A program made the translations under genes and the position numbers. Positions 3,465-20,289 of a stretch of 21,052 bases of DNA are shown here, one piece after another; position 1 is the stretch's first letter; every line of letters begins with the position of its first letter. The DNA is from a virus: the IMG/VR virus record IMGVR_UViG_3300006753_000100, positions 1 through 21,052 of that record. One strand, given 5' to 3'. The notes below the pieces were generated by a model. It was not told where the DNA came from and did not search any database. It worked only from the letters and a program-made list of their open reading frames with translations.

Positions 3465-6400
3465 ATGCCAAAAATCCAAATCGGTGGGACGAGACGTAGG
3501 AAAAAGTCAAGAGACTTAGATGCCCTCAGGAAATGGGAAACAGATGCTGAAGCAGCTTTAGAATGGATAGCGGAAGAGGCTGCCTCGTTCCGTAGGGAAG
3601 CGGAAGAAGATACGCTCACGAATCTTCTGGCTAAACATTTTGAAGCAACAGAAGATAAGCCTTTTACCTTAGATACTGAACAGGCACGGGCGTATGGTTT
3701 TAAAATACCTGATACATGGAAGGTCAAAGCTTACGGAGAACTAACCGATAAGGGAGGAGGGTCCAGTCAAGTATCTGCCAGGTTCAGCGAAATAACCCCT
3801 ACCGGTTGGGAGATAGATGCGGATTTAAACGTGTTATCTCCTAGTGGGGAGCAGTACAACTTGGAAGATATTAAGACATGGGAAGATGCGGATAAAACCG
3901 CCACAGGACTCCTGGGAAGATACTGGAGACAGTGGGAAAACGAATGGAAGGGGATGGCTCCGCCGTCTGAAGAGAAACAACCCTATCTTTGGAGGGAATG
4001 GATTAAAACAGAAACTGATGCAATACCCGATGCAATATCCGAAGAGACAGTTGATATGGCGAGGGCGGAACCCACTGGTATTATATGGGATTCTGAAAAG
4101 GAATTGTATGTTCCTGCTACACTGGACTTACAGGTAACAAGGGATTTCTATACACGATTTCCTGAGTTGTTACCTGAAGGAATATCACCCGCATTAACCT
4201 TTGATGAATTCGATGCTTTAATAGCAGAGCAATCTTTAAAAATGGAACAATTTAATGAATCCATGCTGGCAGTATTTCCCGAACTGCTCTCTTCGATACC
4301 GAAAGACCAGCATGATAATATTACTTCTGCTTTTGTCAATGAAGTAATCGTAAATCCCGAAGTTCAGGATATATTTACTAACACAGTCTTAGAAATAGGC
4401 AGAACCGCAGAGACAGAACTATTATTAAAAACCTTTAATCTCTCCGATTCCGATATTGATGAGTTCTTCGGTATTCCGAGCGATGCTGAAATAATAGAAA
4501 CTCCACAATCTGTTGTTCGCCCTGAGCCTGAATGGGAGAACGCACTAACCGGGGAAATTATTACTCAGTCGGAAATAGATAAGCGGTTCCCTAAAGGTAG
4601 CGAGATAGGGCTGGATGAGTGGAGGTTGACTGCTGAGACAGGGCGTAATTATTGGAATGTATTTAAGATATTCGGTGAAGGACTAACTAAATTACCGAAA
4701 CAGTTGGCGGCATCGGTAGCAACGGCAGTTCAAAGTTTTGGTGGGGCAAGTGTTGTAAACAAAGATTGGGCTGACAATCTAGTTAAGGAAGCCAACACTG
4801 ACCTTAATAAATTTGTTCAAGATACGATAGACCAATATGGTGGCATGAGGTTACCAATCAATGTAGATGATATAGCTATGCTACCGCAAAACATGGCCTT
4901 CTCACTAACATCTATGGGTGCAGGTTTGGTTACAGGTGGACCTATTGCTCTTTTACCTGTTCCTTACGCAAGGGCGGCAGCATGGGGCGTTGGTTCGATA
5001 GCATCAGGAGCAGCAGCCTTCAATATGGCATCTTACCAGATTATGCAGCAGTACCTTGAATTAAAGAATGAGGAAATGAAGGGAACTGCCGACCGGGAAC
5101 TAACACTCGAAGAAGAAAATACGCTGAAGCGAGACTTTGCCGGGTTAGCTACCAAGTATGGATTATGGGAAGCTGTACCTGAAGCTATCAGCAACTTGGC
5201 CTTTGCTAAGTTATTGACCTTGCCACTTGGTAAAATGATAGGCAAAAATATGGCCTCTCAGGTTTTACAAAAGGTGGCTGGCATGTATGGACAGGAATTG
5301 CTCACTGAGACTATAACTCAGAAAGGGCAATCTGCTGTCGAAATTGAAGCAGGGCTAAGAGAAGGGGAGATAACCTGGGTGGAAGCCTTCAAGGAAATAG
5401 CACCGCAGACATTCTTGTTGACTACTGTGCTTGGTGGCGCCGGCAGCATAAGTGTAGCGGCAGTCAGCAGGATAAAGAAGTCGCTGAAACAAGAAATTAG
5501 TGAGGAACCATTATTTAAGGAAATAAACAATAACATAACTGAGGATGTATTCGCCGAAGTAGAGGCTCATGCGGCAGAAGTTGAGGTAGCTGCTGAACCT
5601 ATCGTAACTCCCACTGAGCCAGGTGTTACACCCACCCCACCTAAAGGGGTAGAGGGTGAAGCGTTCTTGTACCATGTTACTCCTACTGAATATGTAGAGG
5701 GCATAAAAGAGCATGGGCTTGTTCCTATGGCTAGACCCTCAAACTGGGTGAAAGCTGGCGATAAAACCCGATATGGCAAAGGGGAGATTTATACATTTGA
5801 AAACCAAACTGATGCCGCTCGTTTCGCTGCTAGTATGGATTGGGAAGTTAATGGCGAGATGGGAAGTGGGAAGATTTCCATAGTTCGTTTGAAAAGAACT
5901 GGAGATTGGACAATAGATACAAATGACCCAATAATGCAAGCTGGGCGTAAAGGTAACTGGCTTAAAACTATGATAGGAGTTAAAGCGGAAGATATTGATG
6001 TTAGTGTTCCGCTTACAAATGAAGTAACCAAGCAATTAACTAGATTAGATCCAGAGGTCAACCTTTTTGGAATCCCCACCCCAGAGGTTACACCCACCCC
6101 CCAGTCTGTAACACCTGAAGCTGATGAAATCTCACAAGTTACGCAAACTGATAGGGCTGCTGGAGCGGTAGGGGCAAAGGCAATTACTCCGAGACATGTC
6201 GGACAAACATCATCCAAGGGCGAAACTATCCTTGACTTTGGGTCAGGTAAAGTACCTATTCATACTGACGTTTTAAGGGAACAGGGATTTAATGTTACAC
6301 CTTACGATATAGGCAAGAATGTAGTTGAGGGCGTTCACGATGTAAATGCTCTCACCAAAACCTACGACACAGTATTTGCCAGTAATGTTATAAATGTTGC

Positions 6401-9400
6401 ACCATCGAAGGCTTTTCTAAGGAAGACTTTGGGTGAAATAAGTGGTTCAGTTAAAGAGGGTGGTAGGGCAGTCTTTAATTATCCAGTAGACCCTCGTAAA
6501 TTAAAACTATCCAATGCTGAAATGGAAGCGATAATTAAAGAGTTTTTCCCCAGTGTTACTAAAGTTGGAGGAACAGCCCAAGCACCTATATGGGAAGCCT
6601 CGGGGGTAACCCCTACGCCTGTTACAGAGCCTGTGGTAGCCCCTGAAGTAACCCCATCTGTGGAAGCCGCCCCCGCACAGCCTGTAGCCGAAGCAGGGGA
6701 GCCATCAACTCTAGACCCTTCTGCCCTACAGGATATACAGCCGTTTAGTGTGGAGGAAATACAGGCTACATTCAATGTGGATGCCGATGTGGCTGTGGCT
6801 ATAGATTTCATAGCAAGAGAAGCAGCCCTTGACTTGAGTAAGGTGAAGTTATCCTCTCAACCGACACGGGCAGAGGATGCATTATGGCAGTTAGCCCCGA
6901 AGTACCAAGCGATGCTAGAGGCTAACAGAGCCAACGAACCGATTGTGCAGGAGGCACTGGCTACTCAGAAACTAATGGATAATGAGCCGACTCTCTGGAA
7001 ACTAAACCCGACAAAGAGGTGGTTTGAAGCCAACGCTGAATATGTATACTCCGTAGACCCAGACCTGCTGTGCCAGCGTTCAGAGGGGACAGATGCCGCC
7101 GTGCATTACTTAAAACAGCTTCTAGGACAAAGATATACCAAGGATATGGGCTGGGAAGTGATAACCCGTGCCAATGAACAGGATTTGCAGACCCCTTGCC
7201 CACAGTGCTTCGTGTTTTCAGGCAGAACGAAGACGGGTACATCGCACCAAAAGAAGTACCTCGTGGGTCTTGGGGGGTACTCTGGGGAAATAATACGCCT
7301 AGACCAGACCACTATTGACAGGTTAGGGGATGAGGGATGGAACCTACTCCGCCATTTTAGTTCCGCTGACTTCAAGGTGGAGCATACCGCTGGCATGGTG
7401 ATGGAGTTTATGGATGCGGCAAATCGGGGGTTGGCAGTAGGGGGGTACAGTAAACAGGGAGATGTTGCCCGCATATTCGGGGACGCCAACTTCTATGTCA
7501 ATTTGAGCGTTGGGCGTAACATACAAATAGGGATGGATATGAACGAAGCTATTGCCCTTCGGAACAAGTATGATTCCGTCGGGATAATCTATGTTCCGTT
7601 CCACAACGATGAGATGTTAGAGGCTCTGAGGAATTCTAATGTAGACCATGTTATCGGCTGGCATACCTCTGGTCAGCAAATTAAGGAACTTGCGACAAAG
7701 GTCTCGGGAAAGATAGTTAATTATCAAACAGAGAGACTACCTGCACTGAAGGGAGACCCTCGGCAGAAGGGGGCTCCGCCCCACCTCAGGGTCAAGGTGT
7801 CAGAGGCAAAAGGAGATGTCGAGACTTATGTTCGGCTGACTGAAGAGAGGGGGCTGGTAAAGCCTTACAACACGATATACGACCTGCTGGGAGACAATGA
7901 GAAGCACCTCTATATGAAACTGGTGGGGGTCGAGTACGGTAAGTTCGGGCAACAGATGCCGTTTAAGCTACCTGACCCGTCCAAGGTGAATTTTGATTTC
8001 ATCCCTGAGGCAATAAAGAACCGTAAGGTATCCCTTGCTGCTACTGATTCTGATTTTATCAAAATAGCCAAACAGATGGTATCCGAGGTGCAGGCAGGCA
8101 CTTTCACTCGTGGCGATGCCACTCCATTAGTAGAGCAGGGTAGCTTAGTATTACAGCAGGACACCAGAGGCTCTACAGAGTTCCTGAAGGACGGGACTGC
8201 CATTATCAGGGGGTTGGAGAGTGCTGATGTATCCACGGGCATCCACGAAATAGCCCATGTTATCAGGAGGCAGTTAGTAAACAGGGATGTACCCGCAACG
8301 GGGCGTAAACTGACTACCGAACAGATAGAGTTAGTGGAGAAATGGGCTGGGGCTAAGAATGGGAAATGGACAACCACCGCTGAAGAGAAGTTTGCCAAGG
8401 GATTTGAGAGATATCTCCGTGACGGAAAAGCCCCTAATAAAAAATTGGAAGCTGTATTCGCCCAGTTTAAGCAGTGGCTGACAAGTATCTACAGAAATCT
8501 TCGCAAGTCAAAGATGGACATCAAGATATCAACGGAAATGAGGCAAGTATTCGATAAAATACTTGGGGCAGAAGCAGTCACACAACCTGCTGAAGTGGTA
8601 GCACCAGAAAGAGAGATTGTTGCTGAAGGTGGTGTTCCTGTTAGTCCTGATGCACTTGTACCTCAAGGGGTAGTTGATAACATAGGAGTAATAAAAGACA
8701 TAGGCATAAAGGAGAAAGGAAGAACCTCACGCAAAGTCTTTGAAAGGATGGGATTGCCAGTGCTTGCTAGAAGTCTACAAGTGGCTGAGGTGCTTGTGCT
8801 GGAAGAAAAAATACAAGGAAGCAAAGAGTTGAGAAAAATCTTCGGATCTATTGATAAGAAAAAGTGGTCAATTATATTCCGAAAGGCAGACAGTGGAGAA
8901 AGTTTGACTGGTCTTTTATGGGAAGAGAAAAGGGCAGTCAATCATGTTCGTAAGTGGGCTGATGTTTGGGCTGATAGAAAGAACTTACCGCGGGAAAAGC
9001 GCATTAAGAATTATATTCCGCATCTGTTTGAACAAGAAATGATTGACCAACTGAAAAGGGGTGAGGATATTGCCCCTGAATTAGCCCTCATGTTAGAGGA
9101 AAGAACAAAGAGTGGCATAACAGACCCATTTTTGAAGAAACGGTTGGGTGCAGTTGGTTTTATCGAAGATCCGGTTAGGGCTATGGAAGCCTATGAAGCT
9201 GCTGCATTAAGGGTAATATACTATGAGCCGTTACTACAGAAGATTAGTGCTATTGCCAACGACTCCAAGCAACCAAAATCGGTACGCGATTGGTTGAAGG
9301 AATACTCAAGGCGGCTAACAGATGAACCATCTACGATGGATAAAGAGAGCAATACTACGATATTGGAAGGTGCTGAAATTATCAGAAAGCTACCAGGCAT

Positions 9401-12400
9401 CGGTTCTTGGCTTGCTGATAGAATGAGTCAGGGAAATCCAATGGCAGCATTATCAAATAATTTAGCAGGACTCTATTATTTTCTCTGGATGGGAGGAAAG
9501 CCTACTACTGCAATTAGAAACTTGTCTCAGCATATATTGATAATGGGAGAAGTTGGCCCAAAATACTTTGCAGAAGGTATAGCACTTCGTTTTACAGAAG
9601 AAGGCAGGAAGGCAGTTAACGAAAAATCATATACGTGGAGAGGTCGTAAATCTGCTAAGTCTGCTGCTACAGTTCCGGGGTTTGAAGATTCTATGATACG
9701 GGGGAAGACTAAAAAGGTTGTAGATGCAGCCTTATATGCCTTTAACAAAGCAGATGAGCAGAATGTAAAGAACGGCTTCTTATCTGGGTATGCAGAGGCA
9801 AAGGACTTACTTACTAAGGCGAATAATGAGTTGCCCGAAGGGGATAGATTATCTCAAGAAGAACTCTATGATTATCTAGTATGGAGGGGAGATGAGGTAG
9901 CCAATGATACTCAATACCTCTACACAAAACTTAATGCCATGTCCGTAAGCCGTAGCGGGTTGGGCAAAGTTTTCTCCATTCTAACAACGTGGACATCGAA
10001 CTGGTTAGAGTTAATGATTAAGTGGGTATCCAAAAGGCCATCCATTGCTTACCAACAGTTTGAAAAGAGAACTGGCGGGAAGGTGGCAGTTAAGAACTGG
10101 TCATCAACCTACAAGTCAATTATATTGTATATGGTTATACTTGGTCTTACGTATGCGCTGAAAGAGAGAGAGAGGATAAAGGCATGGGAATATACGGGGA
10201 TAACTTCACTCAGGTATCTTGCGGATATAGCAGGTGGCGATTTCCCAGGACTTGAAATCCCAGGCGCGGTAGCCAATATTGTTGCGGGTATCACCACTGA
10301 TGATTCACGAAGATTAAAAACGGGTTGGGACTCGTTAATGAGAACCCTCCACCCCAGTGTTATTCAACAGATAACTAAGGTGACTAGCGGTGAACGTGAT
10401 TGGCTGACATTGCTCTTTTATCTTGAGGGTAAGGATTTCTACATTAAGCAATTAGAGAACAAGTGGGAGAAGGGTTGGGAAGAATATGAGTCTCTGGGAT
10501 TACCTGAAGATACTAGCAGTATGACAGATGAGGAAATAGCAAAATTTGGGAGAATAGCATCGAAAGAAAGGAATAAATATCGGAAAGCCAATCCCCAGAT
10601 AGAAGCTCAGATGTTCGTTGCCAGTAAGTTCACTACCCTTTCATCTGATGAAGCAAGGGCTGAAGTCCTGAGAATCATCGAAAAGAATGAACTTGATACC
10701 GAACTGATAGACGGTTATGAAAAAGTCTTTGGTGTTGATACTAATAAGAAGTTTATCAAGGTAAAGAAGTCACTCGGGACTGTGGAGTTGGAGGATACTG
10801 GCGAGCAGAAGTTAAAGGAGAACGGTGAACTGGATTACTACACTACCTCTAACTTCGCCTCATATGTTAATGAACAGGAGAATATTGTCGGTCGGTACAA
10901 GATAGAAAAAGATGGCAATCTGTTGGCGGTTGAATATCTTAAAGCAAAAGACTCGTTTGTTCAGTTTGATAACCTCACTACAGGTGATGCAAGGACTTTA
11001 TTCAGGCAACAGTTCCCTGATGTTGAGGCTCAATTATATTTGTGGGGCAGGATAGCATCATTCAAGAATCCGAATAGCGCCACAATACTCTTAGGTTTAA
11101 TGGAGAAATATAATATACCGCCGGAGTCTATTCCTGCATTTCTTGATAAACCTGAGAGGTATGACGAAATATTCTCTAAGAAGTTTGAAATACAGCAAAA
11201 ATCATTTGAATTAGATGCGGAGTACGAGGGTTTTGGTTTAGAAACCTCACCTAACTATATCAGTCGTGATGAGACAATCAGGGTAGATGGAGAGGAAGTC
11301 AGTAGTCGCAAGTATGCCAGGGCGCAGTTTAAGGAGGAACATCTTGATTGGTGGGCTGACCAGAAGCGCATTGAGGCTATAGACAATGAAGTGCCTGACA
11401 AGTTGGATGGGATGAACGGGATAGATGCTTGGGCTGAAAGATGCACAAATGCCATTGAATATGGTGTGAATAGCCCACAGGACAAAGTATGGTATCTTGA
11501 CCATCCTGAAACTTACAAGTGGGCAATAGAAAATAACTTGCGCGAAGATACTATCCGTGATTGGAATGAACCAGTGTTGCGGATTGATAATGAATTTGCC
11601 GAGCAGGATGATGTTTATGATGAGATAGACTCTGATGCCGTTAATCCCAAAACAAGACTCTCCTTGAGACTTGAGTACCTTCTTGAAAATGAAGAATACC
11701 GCAAGGCAAGGCGTAGAAGGGACGCGCTTAAGTGGGATGGCGCTGATAAGGAAATCATTAGTTCTCATGTAGAGTATGGCGAGAGATTCCTGAATGACGA
11801 TACTGGTTCTAGTTCTGCTGCTAAATTATGGAGAAGCAATAACACAGCATACGAAACTTTTAGAACTGGCATCCCAGAGGGTGATCCAGGACATCTGAAG
11901 GAACTAGATTTAGAGAATCGTCCTGTATGGCAGATTGATGTTGGCTACGCCAAAGAGGAGGCCGAGTATGAAGCTATAGACCCTGATACCAGAAACCCAT
12001 CAACAGGGGTGTTACACCGAACTGAGTGGCTACAGAAGCCAGAGAATGATGAGTACCGCAAAGCTAGGCACCGGCGTAAGGGCTATAAACTTAATAACAG
12101 CAAGACTGGCTACGAATTTCCAGATACACTGGTAGAAGATTATGTATCCTTCATGGAACTTGGTGCCAAAGGCAAGCGTCAAGAGCGAATGTTACTTGAA
12201 GGTTATGACGCTGCGACTGGCACATACTCTCCATTTGCTCAGGCACTCTACGATGTTGGCAAAAAATCTGACTTGCCATTACCAGGAGAGGTCCCGGCAG
12301 TGCAATACGATGACATCTACGACCGGTATCCTGAGCGGTTTGATAGACTTGAGGGTGCTGGTAATTCCGAATCTATCTATTTCATAGAACAAGGTGATAA

Positions 12401-12962
12401 AGACCCGAGAACTGGTAGAACTCCGAGGGAACAGACAGTCCATGACTTACGCTTTAATAGGGACGGTAAACTCTCAAACTTGGGTATAGCTGAGATACGC
12501 AGGGATGGTTATGCCATATTTATGCCTGAAGAATATATTGAGCGATATGTCGATTGGGGCATACTAGAAAAAGAGGGTACACCTGATGACTGGCCAACCA
12601 CAAGGAATAACGAGCCACACATATGGTACGAAGATGATTGGTATTATATTGAGCATCCGAAGTTCTATGAAGTTCTCAAAGGGGTAATGCGTAAAGATGA
12701 TGCTAACTGGCACATGGATAGGGATAAGGAATACTGGAGTGAAATACCAAGTAGAGAAGTCTTTGACCTCTATGTGCAGTACGAGAAACTATCAACCGGC
12801 AAACTGCGTGAGGACTTCAGGTTTGAGCATAGAGACTTGGAAGCATGGGGGCAGAAAAAGTTTGGCTGGGAATCCATCACCGAAAAAAGAAGAAGGGCAA
12901 CGCTTTCGCCTTCAGAGAGGACTGAGGAGTGGGTAAGACGCATGGAGGGACTGTTAGAATAG
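3465..12962 (+). CDS. Giant multidomain polyvalent virion-type protein (3165 aa)
   Basis: One uninterrupted 9.5-kb frame. In order: an unrecognised charged N-terminus (1-330); a region with membrane-like segments (about 471-527, 564-595 and 648-670); an ADP-ribosyltransferase-like domain (734-853); a class I methyltransferase (905-1046); a Cys-motif domain (about 1085-1545); a zincin-like metallopeptidase domain (1560-1702); a long helical region with NYIPHLF (1849-1855) and a hydrophobic helix (2218-2232); and an acidic repetitive C-terminus (2340-3165). Pro-rich linkers sit at about 712-730, 868-885, 1045-1085 and 1703-1735. The build matches 'polyvalent' phage proteins, which are packaged in virions and injected with the genome. 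The start has GAGGAA 8 bases upstream. It follows the portal and precedes the scaffold and coat genes, the usual place for head-associated proteins. Individual domain activities are untested inferences. Confidence 0.85.
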   Translation: MPKIQIGGTRRRKKSRDLDALRKWETDAEAALEWIAEEAASFRREAEEDTLTNLLAKHFEATEDKPFTLDTEQARAYGFKIPDTWKVKAYGELTDKGGGSSQVSARFSEITPTGWEIDADLNVLSPSGEQYNLEDIKTWEDADKTATGLLGRYWRQWENEWKGMAPPSEEKQPYLWREWIKTETDAIPDAISEETVDMARAEPTGIIWDSEKELYVPATLDLQVTRDFYTRFPELLPEGISPALTFDEFDALIAEQSLKMEQFNESMLAVFPELLSSIPKDQHDNITSAFVNEVIVNPEVQDIFTNTVLEIGRTAETELLLKTFNLSDSDIDEFFGIPSDAEIIETPQSVVRPEPEWENALTGEIITQSEIDKRFPKGSEIGLDEWRLTAETGRNYWNVFKIFGEGLTKLPKQLAASVATAVQSFGGASVVNKDWADNLVKEANTDLNKFVQDTIDQYGGMRLPINVDDIAMLPQNMAFSLTSMGAGLVTGGPIALLPVPYARAAAWGVGSIASGAAAFNMASYQIMQQYLELKNEEMKGTADRELTLEEENTLKRDFAGLATKYGLWEAVPEAISNLAFAKLLTLPLGKMIGKNMASQVLQKVAGMYGQELLTETITQKGQSAVEIEAGLREGEITWVEAFKEIAPQTFLLTTVLGGAGSISVAAVSRIKKSLKQEISEEPLFKEINNNITEDVFAEVEAHAAEVEVAAEPIVTPTEPGVTPTPPKGVEGEAFLYHVTPTEYVEGIKEHGLVPMARPSNWVKAGDKTRYGKGEIYTFENQTDAARFAASMDWEVNGEMGSGKISIVRLKRTGDWTIDTNDPIMQAGRKGNWLKTMIGVKAEDIDVSVPLTNEVTKQLTRLDPEVNLFGIPTPEVTPTPQSVTPEADEISQVTQTDRAAGAVGAKAITPRHVGQTSSKGETILDFGSGKVPIHTDVLREQGFNVTPYDIGKNVVEGVHDVNALTKTYDTVFASNVINVAPSKAFLRKTLGEISGSVKEGGRAVFNYPVDPRKLKLSNAEMEAIIKEFFPSVTKVGGTAQAPIWEASGVTPTPVTEPVVAPEVTPSVEAAPAQPVAEAGEPSTLDPSALQDIQPFSVEEIQATFNVDADVAVAIDFIAREAALDLSKVKLSSQPTRAEDALWQLAPKYQAMLEANRANEPIVQEALATQKLMDNEPTLWKLNPTKRWFEANAEYVYSVDPDLLCQRSEGTDAAVHYLKQLLGQRYTKDMGWEVITRANEQDLQTPCPQCFVFSGRTKTGTSHQKKYLVGLGGYSGEIIRLDQTTIDRLGDEGWNLLRHFSSADFKVEHTAGMVMEFMDAANRGLAVGGYSKQGDVARIFGDANFYVNLSVGRNIQIGMDMNEAIALRNKYDSVGIIYVPFHNDEMLEALRNSNVDHVIGWHTSGQQIKELATKVSGKIVNYQTERLPALKGDPRQKGAPPHLRVKVSEAKGDVETYVRLTEERGLVKPYNTIYDLLGDNEKHLYMKLVGVEYGKFGQQMPFKLPDPSKVNFDFIPEAIKNRKVSLAATDSDFIKIAKQMVSEVQAGTFTRGDATPLVEQGSLVLQQDTRGSTEFLKDGTAIIRGLESADVSTGIHEIAHVIRRQLVNRDVPATGRKLTTEQIELVEKWAGAKNGKWTTTAEEKFAKGFERYLRDGKAPNKKLEAVFAQFKQWLTSIYRNLRKSKMDIKISTEMRQVFDKILGAEAVTQPAEVVAPEREIVAEGGVPVSPDALVPQGVVDNIGVIKDIGIKEKGRTSRKVFERMGLPVLARSLQVAEVLVLEEKIQGSKELRKIFGSIDKKKWSIIFRKADSGESLTGLLWEEKRAVNHVRKWADVWADRKNLPREKRIKNYIPHLFEQEMIDQLKRGEDIAPELALMLEERTKSGITDPFLKKRLGAVGFIEDPVRAMEAYEAAALRVIYYEPLLQKISAIANDSKQPKSVRDWLKEYSRRLTDEPSTMDKESNTTILEGAEIIRKLPGIGSWLADRMSQGNPMAALSNNLAGLYYFLWMGGKPTTAIRNLSQHILIMGEVGPKYFAEGIALRFTEEGRKAVNEKSYTWRGRKSAKSAATVPGFEDSMIRGKTKKVVDAALYAFNKADEQNVKNGFLSGYAEAKDLLTKANNELPEGDRLSQEELYDYLVWRGDEVANDTQYLYTKLNAMSVSRSGLGKVFSILTTWTSNWLELMIKWVSKRPSIAYQQFEKRTGGKVAVKNWSSTYKSIILYMVILGLTYALKERERIKAWEYTGITSLRYLADIAGGDFPGLEIPGAVANIVAGITTDDSRRLKTGWDSLMRTLHPSVIQQITKVTSGERDWLTLLFYLEGKDFYIKQLENKWEKGWEEYESLGLPEDTSSMTDEEIAKFGRIASKERNKYRKANPQIEAQMFVASKFTTLSSDEARAEVLRIIEKNELDTELIDGYEKVFGVDTNKKFIKVKKSLGTVELEDTGEQKLKENGELDYYTTSNFASYVNEQENIVGRYKIEKDGNLLAVEYLKAKDSFVQFDNLTTGDARTLFRQQFPDVEAQLYLWGRIASFKNPNSATILLGLMEKYNIPPESIPAFLDKPERYDEIFSKKFEIQQKSFELDAEYEGFGLETSPNYISRDETIRVDGEEVSSRKYARAQFKEEHLDWWADQKRIEAIDNEVPDKLDGMNGIDAWAERCTNAIEYGVNSPQDKVWYLDHPETYKWAIENNLREDTIRDWNEPVLRIDNEFAEQDDVYDEIDSDAVNPKTRLSLRLEYLLENEEYRKARRRRDALKWDGADKEIISSHVEYGERFLNDDTGSSSAAKLWRSNNTAYETFRTGIPEGDPGHLKELDLENRPVWQIDVGYAKEEAEYEAIDPDTRNPSTGVLHRTEWLQKPENDEYRKARHRRKGYKLNNSKTGYEFPDTLVEDYVSFMELGAKGKRQERMLLEGYDAATGTYSPFAQALYDVGKKSDLPLPGEVPAVQYDDIYDRYPERFDRLEGAGNSESIYFIEQGDKDPRTGRTPREQTVHDLRFNRDGKLSNLGIAEIRRDGYAIFMPEEYIERYVDWGILEKEGTPDDWPTTRNNEPHIWYEDDWYYIEHPKFYEVLKGVMRKDDANWHMDRDKEYWSEIPSREVFDLYVQYEKLSTGKLREDFRFEHRDLEAWGQKKFGWESITEKRRRATLSPSERTEEWVRRMEGLLE
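4875..5475 (+). other. Membrane-interacting region of the giant protein
   Basis: Codons about 471-670 of the giant protein contain three low-charge, Gly/Ala/Leu-rich stretches: a long one around GAGLVTGGPIALLPVPYARA and the following GSIASGAAAF, one around NLAFAKLLTLPLG, and one around TFLLTTVLGGAGSISVAAV. Such segments in internal virion proteins are thought to insert into the host membrane during genome ejection. A translocation role is an inference; the stretches could also pack as a soluble helical core. Confidence 0.45.
5625..5638 (+). repeat. 14-bp direct repeat in VTPTP linker, copy 1
   Basis: GTTACACCCACCCC, encoding VTPTP in the linker just before the ADP-ribosyltransferase-like domain. 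It is identical to the copy at 6087-6100 after that domain. A weaker relative (GTAACCCCTACGCC) lies at 6606-6619 after the methyltransferase. Confidence 0.8.
5664..6023 (+). other. ADP-ribosyltransferase-like domain of the giant protein
   Basis: Codons about 734-853. The opening FLYHVTPTEYVEGIKEHGL (H737) followed by a Pro and an LxP-like turn is the signature style of ADP-ribosyltransferase/KptA-like folds. A second element, IYTFENQTDAARF (Y776), fits the conserved aromatic strand and helix, and KISIVRLKR fits the next core strand. Phage ADP-ribosyltransferases modify host proteins such as RNA polymerase early in infection, so an injected effector is a reasonable idea. The third catalytic residue (often Glu) was not located with certainty. 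The domain is flanked by VTPTP linkers on both sides, as expected of an independent module. Confidence 0.5.
6087..6100 (+). repeat. 14-bp direct repeat in VTPTP linker, copy 2
   Basis: Second exact copy of GTTACACCCACCCC. It lies in the linker between the ADP-ribosyltransferase-like and methyltransferase domains, in the same codon phase as copy 1, so recombination between the copies would delete the first domain cleanly in frame. Confidence 0.8.
6177..6602 (+). other. Class I SAM-dependent methyltransferase-like domain of the giant protein
   Basis: Codons about 905-1046. Motif I is ILDFGSGK (922-929; D924, G926, G928), which would bind S-adenosylmethionine. An acidic residue ends strand 2 in TPYDI (D948). 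The strand-4 region is YDTVFASNVINVAPS (967-981), and KEGGRAVFNYP fits the strand-5 area. Similar 'NVLNV' methyltransferases are a recurrent module in large phage polyvalent proteins, as I recall. The substrate (DNA, RNA or protein) cannot be read from the sequence; the NVINV segment is not a DPPY/NPPF-type DNA N-methyltransferase motif IV. Confidence 0.65.
6717..8099 (+). other. Cysteine-motif domain of unknown function in the giant protein
   Basis: Codons about 1085-1545. It contains LCQRSEG (C1203) and TPCPQCFVFSGR (C1245, C1248), three cysteines that could hold a metal or Fe-S centre. These are followed by FMDAANRGLAVGGYSK, RIFGDANFYVNLSV, EAIALRNKYDSVGIIYVPFH and VDHVIGWHTSG (H1395, H1400). 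I recall this combination (Cys triad, then 'LRxKY..vGtI.v', then 'id.VIp.H.Sg') from uncharacterised segments of very large ORFs in gut and environmental phages. It does not contain a CxxxCxxC radical-SAM motif, so I do not assign an enzyme class. Confidence 0.5.
8142..8570 (+). other. Zincin-like metallopeptidase domain of the giant protein
   Basis: Codons about 1560-1702. The zinc-binding HExxH is HEIAH at 1594-1598, with E1595 as candidate catalytic base. It is preceded by ADVSTGI, a context I recall from phage polyvalent proteins. A downstream helix AEEKFAKGFERYL supplies E1640 or E1641 as a third ligand of gluzincin type. This is followed by KQWLTSIYRNLR, the usual end of this domain. 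It might process virion proteins or the giant protein itself, or cleave a host target; none of these is shown by the sequence. Confidence 0.65.
10482..12950 (+). other. Repetitive acidic C-terminal region of the giant protein
   Basis: Codons about 2340-3160, Glu/Asp/Arg/Tyr/Trp-rich. Two copies of an 'NP/FPxxEAQ...' helix unit occur: NPQIEAQMFVASKFTTLSS (from about 2373) and FPDVEAQLYLWGRIASF (from about 2514). A second unit occurs at YDEIDSDAVNPKTRLSLRLE (about 2719) and again at YEAIDPDTRNPSTGVLHRTE (about 2836). Both copies continue into a near-identical EYRKAR(R/H)RR stretch. A related EIPSREVFDLYVQYEKL unit is near 3098 and resembles EFPDTLVEDYVSFMEL near 2885. The region is probably a helical solenoid-like extension with a structural or packaging role. 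Confidence 0.55.
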
Positions 12963-17410: not shown

Positions 17411-17836
17411 ATGGCAGCAAGCGCTTGGGCTTTTACAAACGGAGGCAGGACATGCCTACTTGATGGGACTTTTGATATAGACACTGATACCTATAAGATG
17501 GCTTTATTCCTTTCTTCTTCCAACTTGGGAGCAAGCAGTACAACTTTTGCAGGGTTAACCAATGAACACGCCGGTGCCAATGGTTATACTGGCGGAGGGG
17601 CATCAGTAACACTGACGTTATCTGGCACTACTACAGTTACTGTAGATATCAGCAGTGATCCAACTTGGACGGCTAGTGGCGGCAGTATTGTGGCGAGGTT
17701 TGCCGTTATCTATGAAGTAGGCGGTAAAATAGTGTGTTACTGCACACTAGATAGCGCGCCAGCCGATGTTACAGTTACTACTGGCAATATATTGACTGTA
17801 GCGGCTCACGCATCTGGCGTATTTACACTAGCCTAA
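17411..17836 (+). CDS. Phage minor structural protein (tail/decoration-like)
   Basis: A 141-residue beta-rich protein. The series 'G.fDidTDTYKMALFLSSS', 'AGLTNEHAGANGYTGGG' and 'DPTWTASGGSIVARFAVIYE' is a recognisable phage structural pattern: cargo strands, then NE-A-G-GYT-GG, then WTAs...AR.aviY. It is usually annotated as a minor tail or virion protein of unknown detail. The start is well set by AGGAGGG about 7 bases upstream. No collagen-like or receptor-binding motif is seen. Confidence 0.7.
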   Translation: MAASAWAFTNGGRTCLLDGTFDIDTDTYKMALFLSSSNLGASSTTFAGLTNEHAGANGYTGGGASVTLTLSGTTTVTVDISSDPTWTASGGSIVARFAVIYEVGGKIVCYCTLDSAPADVTVTTGNILTVAAHASGVFTLA

Positions 17837-18110: not shown

Positions 18111-18680
18111 ATGGCTGATTCCAAACTCAGCGCACTATCTGAACTGGCAGCCGCACCAGCCTCTGACGATGAGGTATATATCAGAGATGTCTCAGAGGCA
18201 GCGGCAAACGAGTCCAAGCGGATTACAATAGCCAATCTTCACAGTTTGGGAGAAAATATTGGGATTATACTTGATGCTGCCCTGAGTGTTGATGGCAAGT
18301 ATTCTGGTATAGTTGAGGATGGCACGGCAGGAACCACACTTGCTTTTGGAGATTTGGTTTACCTAGCCGTAGCTGATAGCAGGTGGGAGTTAACTGATGC
18401 TGATGCCGTTGCAACTGCTGTTGGTAAAATAGGAATATGCGTTTTGGCTGCTGGCAGTGACGGAAACGCTACCAGGGTACTTCTATTCGGTAAAGTCAGG
18501 GCTGACGCAGCATTTCCAGCTCTCACGGTTGGAGCGCCAACCCATGTCGGGACTACTGCCGGAGACATACAGGTAGCTGCCCCTTCTGGTACTGGTGATG
18601 TAGTTAGGATTATCGGCTATGGGAATACAGCCGACGAACTTTACTTTTGCCCAGACAATACTTATGTAGAGTTAGCATAA
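18111..18680 (+). CDS. Virion decoration/fibre-type protein
   Basis: A 189-residue protein. It opens SKLSALSELAAAPASDDEVY and RITIANLH, the 'K.S.L...~.~~d.~~i.d.....~~i.~~~l' start I recall from phage fibre/virion proteins. The second half (LAFGDLVYLAV, GKIGICVLAAG, VLLFGKVRA, PTHVGTTAGDIQVAAPSG, RIIGYG) is a beta-barrel-like module found in many phage surface proteins. A capsid decoration or tail-fibre base role is likely. The start is firm with AAGGAGGG 6 bases upstream. The stop overlaps the next ATG (TAATG at 18678-18682). Confidence 0.65.
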   Translation: MADSKLSALSELAAAPASDDEVYIRDVSEAAANESKRITIANLHSLGENIGIILDAALSVDGKYSGIVEDGTAGTTLAFGDLVYLAVADSRWELTDADAVATAVGKIGICVLAAGSDGNATRVLLFGKVRADAAFPALTVGAPTHVGTTAGDIQVAAPSGTGDVVRIIGYGNTADELYFCPDNTYVELA

Positions 18681-19357
18681 TGGCAATTGAGGATTTCACT
18701 ACTTACACAGAGGTTGATACTCAGGGTTGGTTGACGGTAGCATCAAATAAAATTGAGGGAACCGATGTCAACCGAAATGTAGATGCTTATGTGTACAAGG
18801 ATTATACAGCGGATTTCTTTAATGCCCTTGATATACTTTTTGAAATACAGATAGAGGATACTTCGGAATTAGAAGCCAGGGGCGGGCCAGCTATTTCTGA
18901 CACCATTGGGTCTGTGAATGACTTTGCCAGTACTGACATAAGTATAGCGGCTCGTGTGCTAACGGCTGGGCCGGCTTACCAAATAGAATTAGCAAGGGGA
19001 AACTATTTAGCTAAAGATACTTTTACTGGTGCAGCTAATACGCTATACTATTGCACTTTAAGCAGGGCAGCAGGCAATGATACGGTAACTTTAAAGATAT
19101 ACTCTGATTCACCAAGGACTAATTTACTAGATACCCTCACAGTCGCAGGATTTGGAGTAGCGAAATGGAGATACAGCTATGGGTTCGTCAATGTTAATTC
19201 GGGACCTACCAATAGGGCATTTGACGGGTTCGTTCAGGACATGGACTTGCAAACGGGCTGGACAGGCGGGAATGTTATAGGGGTAGCCAATGCCAGCATA
19301 GCCAAGATAAACGGAGTAGCTATGGCAGCTATTGGAAAAGTTAATGGAGTAGCTTAA
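18680..19357 (+). CDS. Lectin-like structural protein with NGVA repeat tail
   Basis: A 225-residue beta-rich protein of jelly-roll/concanavalin style (DILFEIQIEDTSELE, AYQIELARG, FDGFVQDMDL). It ends in a short repeat, IAKINGVAMAAIGKVNGVA, a tail I recall at the end of phage fibre proteins, perhaps for trimerisation. I chose the ATG at 18680, overlapping the preceding stop, rather than the in-frame ATG at 18647 inside the previous gene. It is probably a fibre or adsorption component. Confidence 0.65.
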   Translation: MAIEDFTTYTEVDTQGWLTVASNKIEGTDVNRNVDAYVYKDYTADFFNALDILFEIQIEDTSELEARGGPAISDTIGSVNDFASTDISIAARVLTAGPAYQIELARGNYLAKDTFTGAANTLYYCTLSRAAGNDTVTLKIYSDSPRTNLLDTLTVAGFGVAKWRYSYGFVNVNSGPTNRAFDGFVQDMDLQTGWTGGNVIGVANASIAKINGVAMAAIGKVNGVA

Positions 19358-19429
19358 ATGACATCAAGGTTTGAGGGGCAACAGAGTTATAGCCATGCAT
19401 CAAGTAAACGAATGGTAGTGACGATATAA
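19358..19429 (+). CDS. Micro-ORF fitted exactly between two structural genes
   Basis: A 23-codon frame (begins MTSRFEGQQSYS) whose ATG directly follows the stop of the upstream gene and whose TAA ends one base before the next ATG. A GGAG lies 8 bases upstream. The downstream gene at 19431 lacks a good ribosome site of its own, so this micro-ORF could carry ribosomes to it. The peptide is unrecognised and the fit may be chance. Confidence 0.35.
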   Translation: MTSRFEGQQSYSHASSKRMVVTI

Positions 19430-19430
19430 T

Positions 19431-19937
19431 ATGGCAGATGTAAACAGGTTATTACTAGAATCAGGCGATTTACTTTTACTAGAGGACGGCACAGACCGCT
19501 TACTTTTAGAGTTAGACTTAAGTATTACGGTTACTCCCTCCACTCTATCCTTAACCGCTGCGAGTTTCGCCCCTGTTCTGTCGGAGGCTATCACACCGGC
19601 TACGCTAGCCCTCTCCACTGTTACCTATAGCCCTGTTGCCGGTGCGCCATCGACAGCTACGCCTGGTACTTTGGCTCTCTCTACCGTTAGTTATGCCCCA
19701 ACTCTAAAAGAAACTGTAACTCCATCCACCTTAACACTTACTACCACCGGGTATGCGCCAATAGCAGCATTTAAAATAGTCGCTACACCTACTACGCTGG
19801 CACTGGCATTTACTCTTTACGCTCCAGATTATTCAGCCACAGGCAAACTTAAGATATCTTATATTATTGTGTGCCAGCACAGGGATGTTCATACTATTAC
19901 CAGCCAGTATCGGGATATTCACACGATTACTGCATAA
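19431..19937 (+). CDS. Repeat-rich virion-type protein
   Basis: A 168-residue protein. The N-terminus has three LLLE units (NRLLLESGDLLLLEDG, DRLLLE), a pattern I recall in phage proteins. Residues 34-132 hold five 15-residue repeats of the form VTPxTLxLTxxxYAP. The C-terminus holds QHRDVHTITS and QYRDIHTITA, two 10-residue repeats whose third copy continues past the TAA stop. It is probably an elongated beta-fibre or stalk. No strong ribosome site is seen upstream of the ATG; the gene may be coupled to the micro-ORF before it. Confidence 0.65.
   Translation: MADVNRLLLESGDLLLLEDGTDRLLLELDLSITVTPSTLSLTAASFAPVLSEAITPATLALSTVTYSPVAGAPSTATPGTLALSTVSYAPTLKETVTPSTLTLTTTGYAPIAAFKIVATPTTLALAFTLYAPDYSATGKLKISYIIVCQHRDVHTITSQYRDIHTITA
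19530..19826 (+). repeat. Five imperfect 15-codon tandem repeats
   Basis: Codons 34-48, 54-68, 76-90, 96-110 and 118-132 of the gene at 19431 each encode (V/I/A)TPxTLxLxxxxYxP (Phe for Tyr in the first copy). Start-to-start distances are 20, 22, 20 and 22 codons, so the ancestral unit may be a 42-codon pair. Confidence 0.75.
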
Positions 19938-19964
19938 GGACGAGACATAAGTACCATCACAACC
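19875..19964 (+). repeat. Three 30-bp tandem repeats running across a stop codon
   Basis: Copy 1 (19875-19904) and copy 2 (19905-19934) encode QHRDVHTITS and QYRDIHTITA. Copy 3 (19935-19964) begins with the gene's TAA where the others have CAG, then reads GRDISTITT in the same frame. The intergenic segment is therefore the repeat continued. Confidence 0.7.
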
Positions 19965-19974
19965 GGAGGATAAT

Positions 19975-20289
19975 ATGGCTATAAAGGTACAGACGGAGTT
20001 TCTAAACGCTACTACTATAAGAATTGTAAGTTATGTGTACGACACTGCTGACGCCTTGGCTGATGCTACCGGGTTAACCATCGATATATATGATCCCGAT
20101 GGTACGCAACAGGCAACAGCCCAAGCTATGACTAATCAATCTACCGGTATCTACGATTACTATTACCATAAAGGGGCTGGTGAGGCTGCTATGGATTCAG
20201 GCAGGTGGCGGGGCAAGGTGCTGGTAGTCGATGGCGCCGGGGGGAGTGCTATATATTCTGAGGGTACATTCTCGTTCAAGGTCATATAG
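19975..20289 (+). CDS. Small beta-sandwich virion protein
   Basis: A 104-residue protein with an Ig-like strand pattern. TIRIVSYVYD, LTIDIYDPDGT, MTNQSTGIYDYYYH, GRWRGKVLVVDG and YSEGTFSFKV follow the 'v.iyDPdGt...gvYdY.yh...G.WrG.v.v.DG...~~eg.F.V' layout I recall in small phage structural proteins. It is probably an accessory fibre or baseplate component. The start has CGGAGGA 4 bases upstream, located in the last repeat copy after the preceding stop. Confidence 0.6.
   Translation: MAIKVQTEFLNATTIRIVSYVYDTADALADATGLTIDIYDPDGTQQATAQAMTNQSTGIYDYYYHKGAGEAAMDSGRWRGKVLVVDGAGGSAIYSEGTFSFKVI

Follow-up and report, generated by a model that had tools for sequence, protein, structure and literature searches.

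Extension of the coat protein of phage Q-beta is stop-codon readthrough in phages, and takes place at a UGA codon. The locus described here shares with it in-frame coding sequence after a stop, but the stop is UAA, and the observed pattern can be explained by a recent nonsense change. Nonsense truncation of a terminal repeat in a phage gene offers a second comparison, with an in-frame stop and a conserved coding remnant that stays in frame until a second stop, where the gene is expected to end; here, in contrast, the collections searched yielded no intact allele, and we infer the change from internal repeats and from the gene-end architecture of relatives. The proteins encoded at viral loci L076, L043, L044, L037, L039, L038, L083 and L084 have the same central ~21-aa repeats, a variable tail that often holds short tandem repeats, and a stop abutting the next gene, but their C-terminal repeats are unrelated to RDIHTIT and none has a stop inside its terminal repeat. 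Tail-fibre-like phage decapeptides (..SDVTTVAGI..), recovered in a two-copy pattern scan, also have a period of 10 residues and the pattern D[VI]xT[VI], whereas they carry S for R before the D and form longer internal arrays that are not C-terminal, a likeness of pattern only.

The window analysed, meaning the whole stretch of 21,052 nucleotides from a single uncultivated viral record, places the gene of interest in a fragment of a tailed-phage genome that also encodes terminase and a major head protein. The 168-aa protein runs from N-terminal LLLE-type repeats through five ~21-aa TPxTLxLTxxxYAPV-type repeats to C-terminal decapeptide repeats, and neither Pfam nor PHROGs gave a match for it. 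The gene end and the junction with its neighbour comprise the following features.

19431 to 19937, plus strand: modular repeat-protein gene as now read, 168 aa.
19875 to 19904, plus strand: decapeptide copy 1, QHRDVHTITS, seen in the sequence and by Tandem Repeats Finder.
19905 to 19934, plus strand: decapeptide copy 2, QYRDIHTITA, identical to copy 1 at 20 of 30 nt (Tandem Repeats Finder).
19935 to 19937, plus strand: first TAA, a putative derived premature stop, judged by the repeat register and the stop position in relatives.
19938 to 19970, plus strand: GRDISTITTGG, what is left of copy 3, in frame with the gene and presumably untranslated now; 6 residues kept, 0 of 10 third positions as in copy 2.
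19965 to 19969, plus strand: GGAGG, serving the next gene as Shine-Dalgarno site and coding as well for what was probably the C-terminal Gly-Gly of the longer protein; read from the sequence, with the same arrangement in L076, L040 and L042.
19971 to 19973, plus strand: second TAA, probably the ancestral stop; it matches the stop position in 12 relatives, and 1 nt separates it from the next ATG.
19975 to 20289, plus strand: next gene, 104 aa, of no confident family, weakly similar to the gene after the L076 repeat gene.

On re-reading the window, the letters and coordinates that a first-pass annotation had given for the copies, both TAA codons, the extension and the next ATG were all correct. 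The 168-aa protein is repetitive at its N terminus as well (19431-19511; NRLLLESGDLLLLEDGTDRLLLELD), and the L043 relative begins with a segment that resembles it (MADRYLLEGSAVDGYLLEDATGILLLE).

We put at roughly two in three (0.66) the probability that this repeat protein of a tailed phage was shortened by a nonsense substitution at 19935, with the ancestral stop at 19971. The original C terminus would have held at least three decapeptides and ended in ...GRDISTITTGG at the TAA at 19971, its final Gly-Gly codons doing double duty as the next gene's ribosome-binding site. Copies 1 and 2 both open with Gln, so by register copy 3 probably began with a Gln codon too, and one substitution there would then have produced the TAA at 19935. 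The protein would now be 12 residues shorter, with two repeats left and one repeat and the Gly-Gly end lost, and the remnant would stay as a 37-nt gap. Its DNA may persist partly because the Shine-Dalgarno site of the next gene lies within it, and perhaps also because little time has elapsed. Since no homologue with these decapeptides was found, we can only infer the ancestral codon and the polarity of the change, and the direction and identity of the substitution, its recency and its tolerance are likewise deductions. The first-pass annotation had proposed a CAA-to-TAA change; its nonsense component gains support from the mark of translation in copy 3 and from the stops that abut the next start in 12 relatives, and Gln fits the register, whereas the ancestral codon itself appears in no homologue found.

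The evidence for past translation comes from how copy 3 differs from its neighbours. At the nucleotide level copies 1 and 2 agree at 20 of 30 positions and copy 3 agrees with either at 14 of 30, and Tandem Repeats Finder called a DNA repeat at 19873-19930, which corresponds to copies 1 and 2 only. The earlier description of a 30-bp tandem repeat with a third copy thus holds for the first two copies, whereas the third is recognisable only as protein. When copies 2 and 3 were compared by codon position, 6 of 10 first, 8 of 10 second and none of the 10 third positions were identical, and the six residues they share (R, D, I, T, I, T) are encoded by codon pairs whose only difference is the third base. 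Given 14 matches in 30, the lack of any third-position agreement has a hypergeometric p of ~3e-4, and the survival of at least 6 residues through 16 random substitutions in 30 nt a p of ~5e-5. We also scored every other position of the window, on both strands, against copies 1 and 2; the in-register 9-residue BLOSUM score of copy 3 (27) was reached by 1 of 41,916 other positions and frames. The likeness of copy 3 to copies 1 and 2 exceeds chance. As six residues were kept while all third positions differ, the best reading of the sequence after the first TAA is that it evolved as coding in this frame, copy 3 having been translated while it diverged. Intact repeat pairs in relatives show synonymous divergence too, less extreme and with more codons shared than between copies 2 and 3.

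The second line of evidence is the position of the stop in related genes. To fetch the relatives' loci from viral contigs we used the gene at 17411 as query and, in a later round, a small alignment. Central ~21-residue repeats of the form TPxTLxLTxTxYAPV are common to other viral contigs at about 40-57% identity; the 168-aa protein, which carries the tandem TP.TL.L.....YAP repeat, matched fetched loci with tblastn E values to about 1e-20 or lower and with up to 57% identity (tblastn; alignment A3). The N-terminal domains of these relatives differ, and so do their tails. In 12 of them (L036-L040, L042-L044, L076, L080, L083 and L084), some of which are close to each other, the stop falls within 4 nt of the next start on either side (-4 to +4), while L035, L046, L053 and L054 have no such arrangement with the starts listed. 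An abutting stop is common in this repeat-protein group and not defining by itself. The repeat genes of L076, L040 and L042 close with GGA GGG and a stop, with an ATG within a few bases, such that the Gly-Gly end doubles as the Shine-Dalgarno sequence.

The window junction at the second TAA reads GGA GGA TAA T ATG, and the distance to the next start is 37 nt from the first TAA versus 1 nt from the second. With 5 nt between it and the ATG at 19975, the GGAGG at 19965-19969 makes a good Shine-Dalgarno site. It had earlier been placed in the repeat extension, where it does lie, specifically in the pair of Gly codons located after the 30 nt of copy 3. Because the stops of the relatives adjoin the next start and because the Gly-Gly/Shine-Dalgarno ends are parallel, the second TAA was probably the original stop of the repeat gene, a reading drawn from the similar gene ends and not from an orthologue that shares the decapeptides. 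The first-pass annotation had held that homologues with unrelated sequence after the stop would mark the match as chance; this case did not arise, most relatives having no gap sequence there.

Short C-terminal tandem repeats, with best periods mostly of 9-12, occur in several relatives, so proteins of this type usually, though not universally, have a repeat at or close to the end of the gene. They reached p values of 0.007 or less (1000 shuffles) in L076, L043, L042, L040, L044, L080, L083 and L039, with a period of 10 in L076 (SSVFSTGLEI/TSTFSTGLTI) and L044, 9 in L043 (YPDRSQNQ type) and 12 in L040 and L042; no C-terminal short repeat stood out in L038, L084, L036 or L035. The repeat sequences are unrelated from phage to phage. 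At L043 (4267-4875) the related protein ends in five tandem nonapeptides of the YPDRSQNQ type, whose synonymous codons have diverged.

The alternative that survives best, unlikely in our view but to be taken seriously, is that the TAA arose as an error of sequencing or assembly, or that the metagenome consensus has picked up a minority or strain variant, with most of the population encoding the full three-repeat protein. Apart from the TAA, which is one base away from the codon expected by register, the gene is open; the conserved residues of the remnant show no decay, as expected were the stop absent from most genomes, and the window is a single record. Single-base errors, on the other hand, are uncommon in short-read consensus sequence. 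Homologues were sought at several levels. The genome contigs, scanned with the gene at 17411, gave no relative; direct scans of the viral contigs returned no relative of the 168-aa protein or of the next gene, and a direct scan of named phages none of the 168-aa protein. No close relative at the site of the first TAA, let alone one with an intact allele, was found in the viral contigs or phages, and the CAA/CAG comparison proposed earlier found no homologue displaying that codon in these searches. Protein scans and DNA pattern scans recovered no homologue with RDIHTIT-type decapeptides. A two-copy [RS]D[IV]xT[IV] DNA pattern with 30-nt spacing hit 15 viral contigs with tail-fibre-like SDVTTVAG repeats that are not relatives, and none of the genome contigs; the one-copy pattern QxRDIxTIT hit portal-like proteins only, which we judged to be chance, and a pattern for copy 3 itself had no match. 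Literature searches covering premature stops in terminal repeats and the extension of phage tail proteins returned nothing bearing on the case.

It is improbable that copy 3 is a non-coding duplicate copied beyond an old stop, or a chance likeness, kept only for the ribosome-binding site. Its identity of only 14 of 30 nt to the other copies and the lack of a homologue with the copy translated are in accordance with such an origin, but an untranslated copy would not be expected to keep six residues with every third position changed (p ~3e-4 and ~5e-5, as above), and a match as good as the in-register one is rare in the rest of the window (1/41,916).

Programmed or leaky readthrough of the UAA, as suggested in the first-pass annotation, would give a minor extended isoform with 12 residues and one repeat more and would keep copy 3 under selection; we consider it very unlikely. 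In its favour, the second stop ends the extension right where the next gene begins, and copy 3 has been kept as protein despite its complete third-position divergence from copy 2. This conservation, however, is expected equally under readthrough and under a recent stop, and thus does not separate them. Against readthrough, a comparative study of stop codons in bacteria cites evidence that it is least at UAA (PMC5289835). The UAA is followed by G, which is not a leaky context, and we found no stimulatory or otherwise unusual RNA structure, as folding of the 90 nt from the stop was no stronger than that of shuffled sequences (z = +0.67). No relative examined has a stop inside its terminal repeat, and no tRNA gene, including a suppressor, is encoded in the window, a fragment of a genome that may carry one elsewhere. 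With TAA an ordinary stop elsewhere in the window, the suggestion gained no positive support. Low-level readthrough giving two forms, with two or three terminal decapeptides, and a stop maintained as dose control, is slightly more doubtful again. The predicted structure of the read-through form had a mean pLDDT of 50, and below 50 throughout the C terminus, a confidence too low for use.

Reassignment of TAA to an amino acid, with the gene running on, can practically be dismissed: PMC9523058 describes stop reassignment in phages for TAG (genetic code 15), whereas here several window genes end in TAA, one with an overlapping start (18678-18680), the second TAA would be passed too, and no suppressor tRNA was found in the window.

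A stop that cuts off a terminal repeat is nothing unusual; it would be an ordinary trace of phage gene decay, and no new mechanism is indicated. If the nonsense truncation at 19935 is right, the locus would be a snapshot of phage repeat proteins losing terminal repeats by point mutation, which they could regain in the same way, and of DNA that stays after the loss of a repeat because the ribosome site of the next gene is within it. It would also illustrate that internal repeats together with gene-end architecture can expose a premature stop without a close homologue.

Several features of the surrounding cluster were also observed. The upstream gene (18680-19357) ends in a short repeat as well (19285-19357), closing with ASIAKINGVAMAAIGKVNGVA before its stop, so two genes of the cluster have C-terminal short repeats. 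A 23-codon open reading frame (19358-19429; MTSRFEGQQSYSHASSKRMVVTI) fills the space between the 18680 and 19431 genes, and its TAA lies 1 nt before the next ATG; this junction, ATAATATGGC, is the same as that before 19975. Upstream of the head genes, a single open reading frame of 3165 codons (3465-12962) occupies nearly half of the window.
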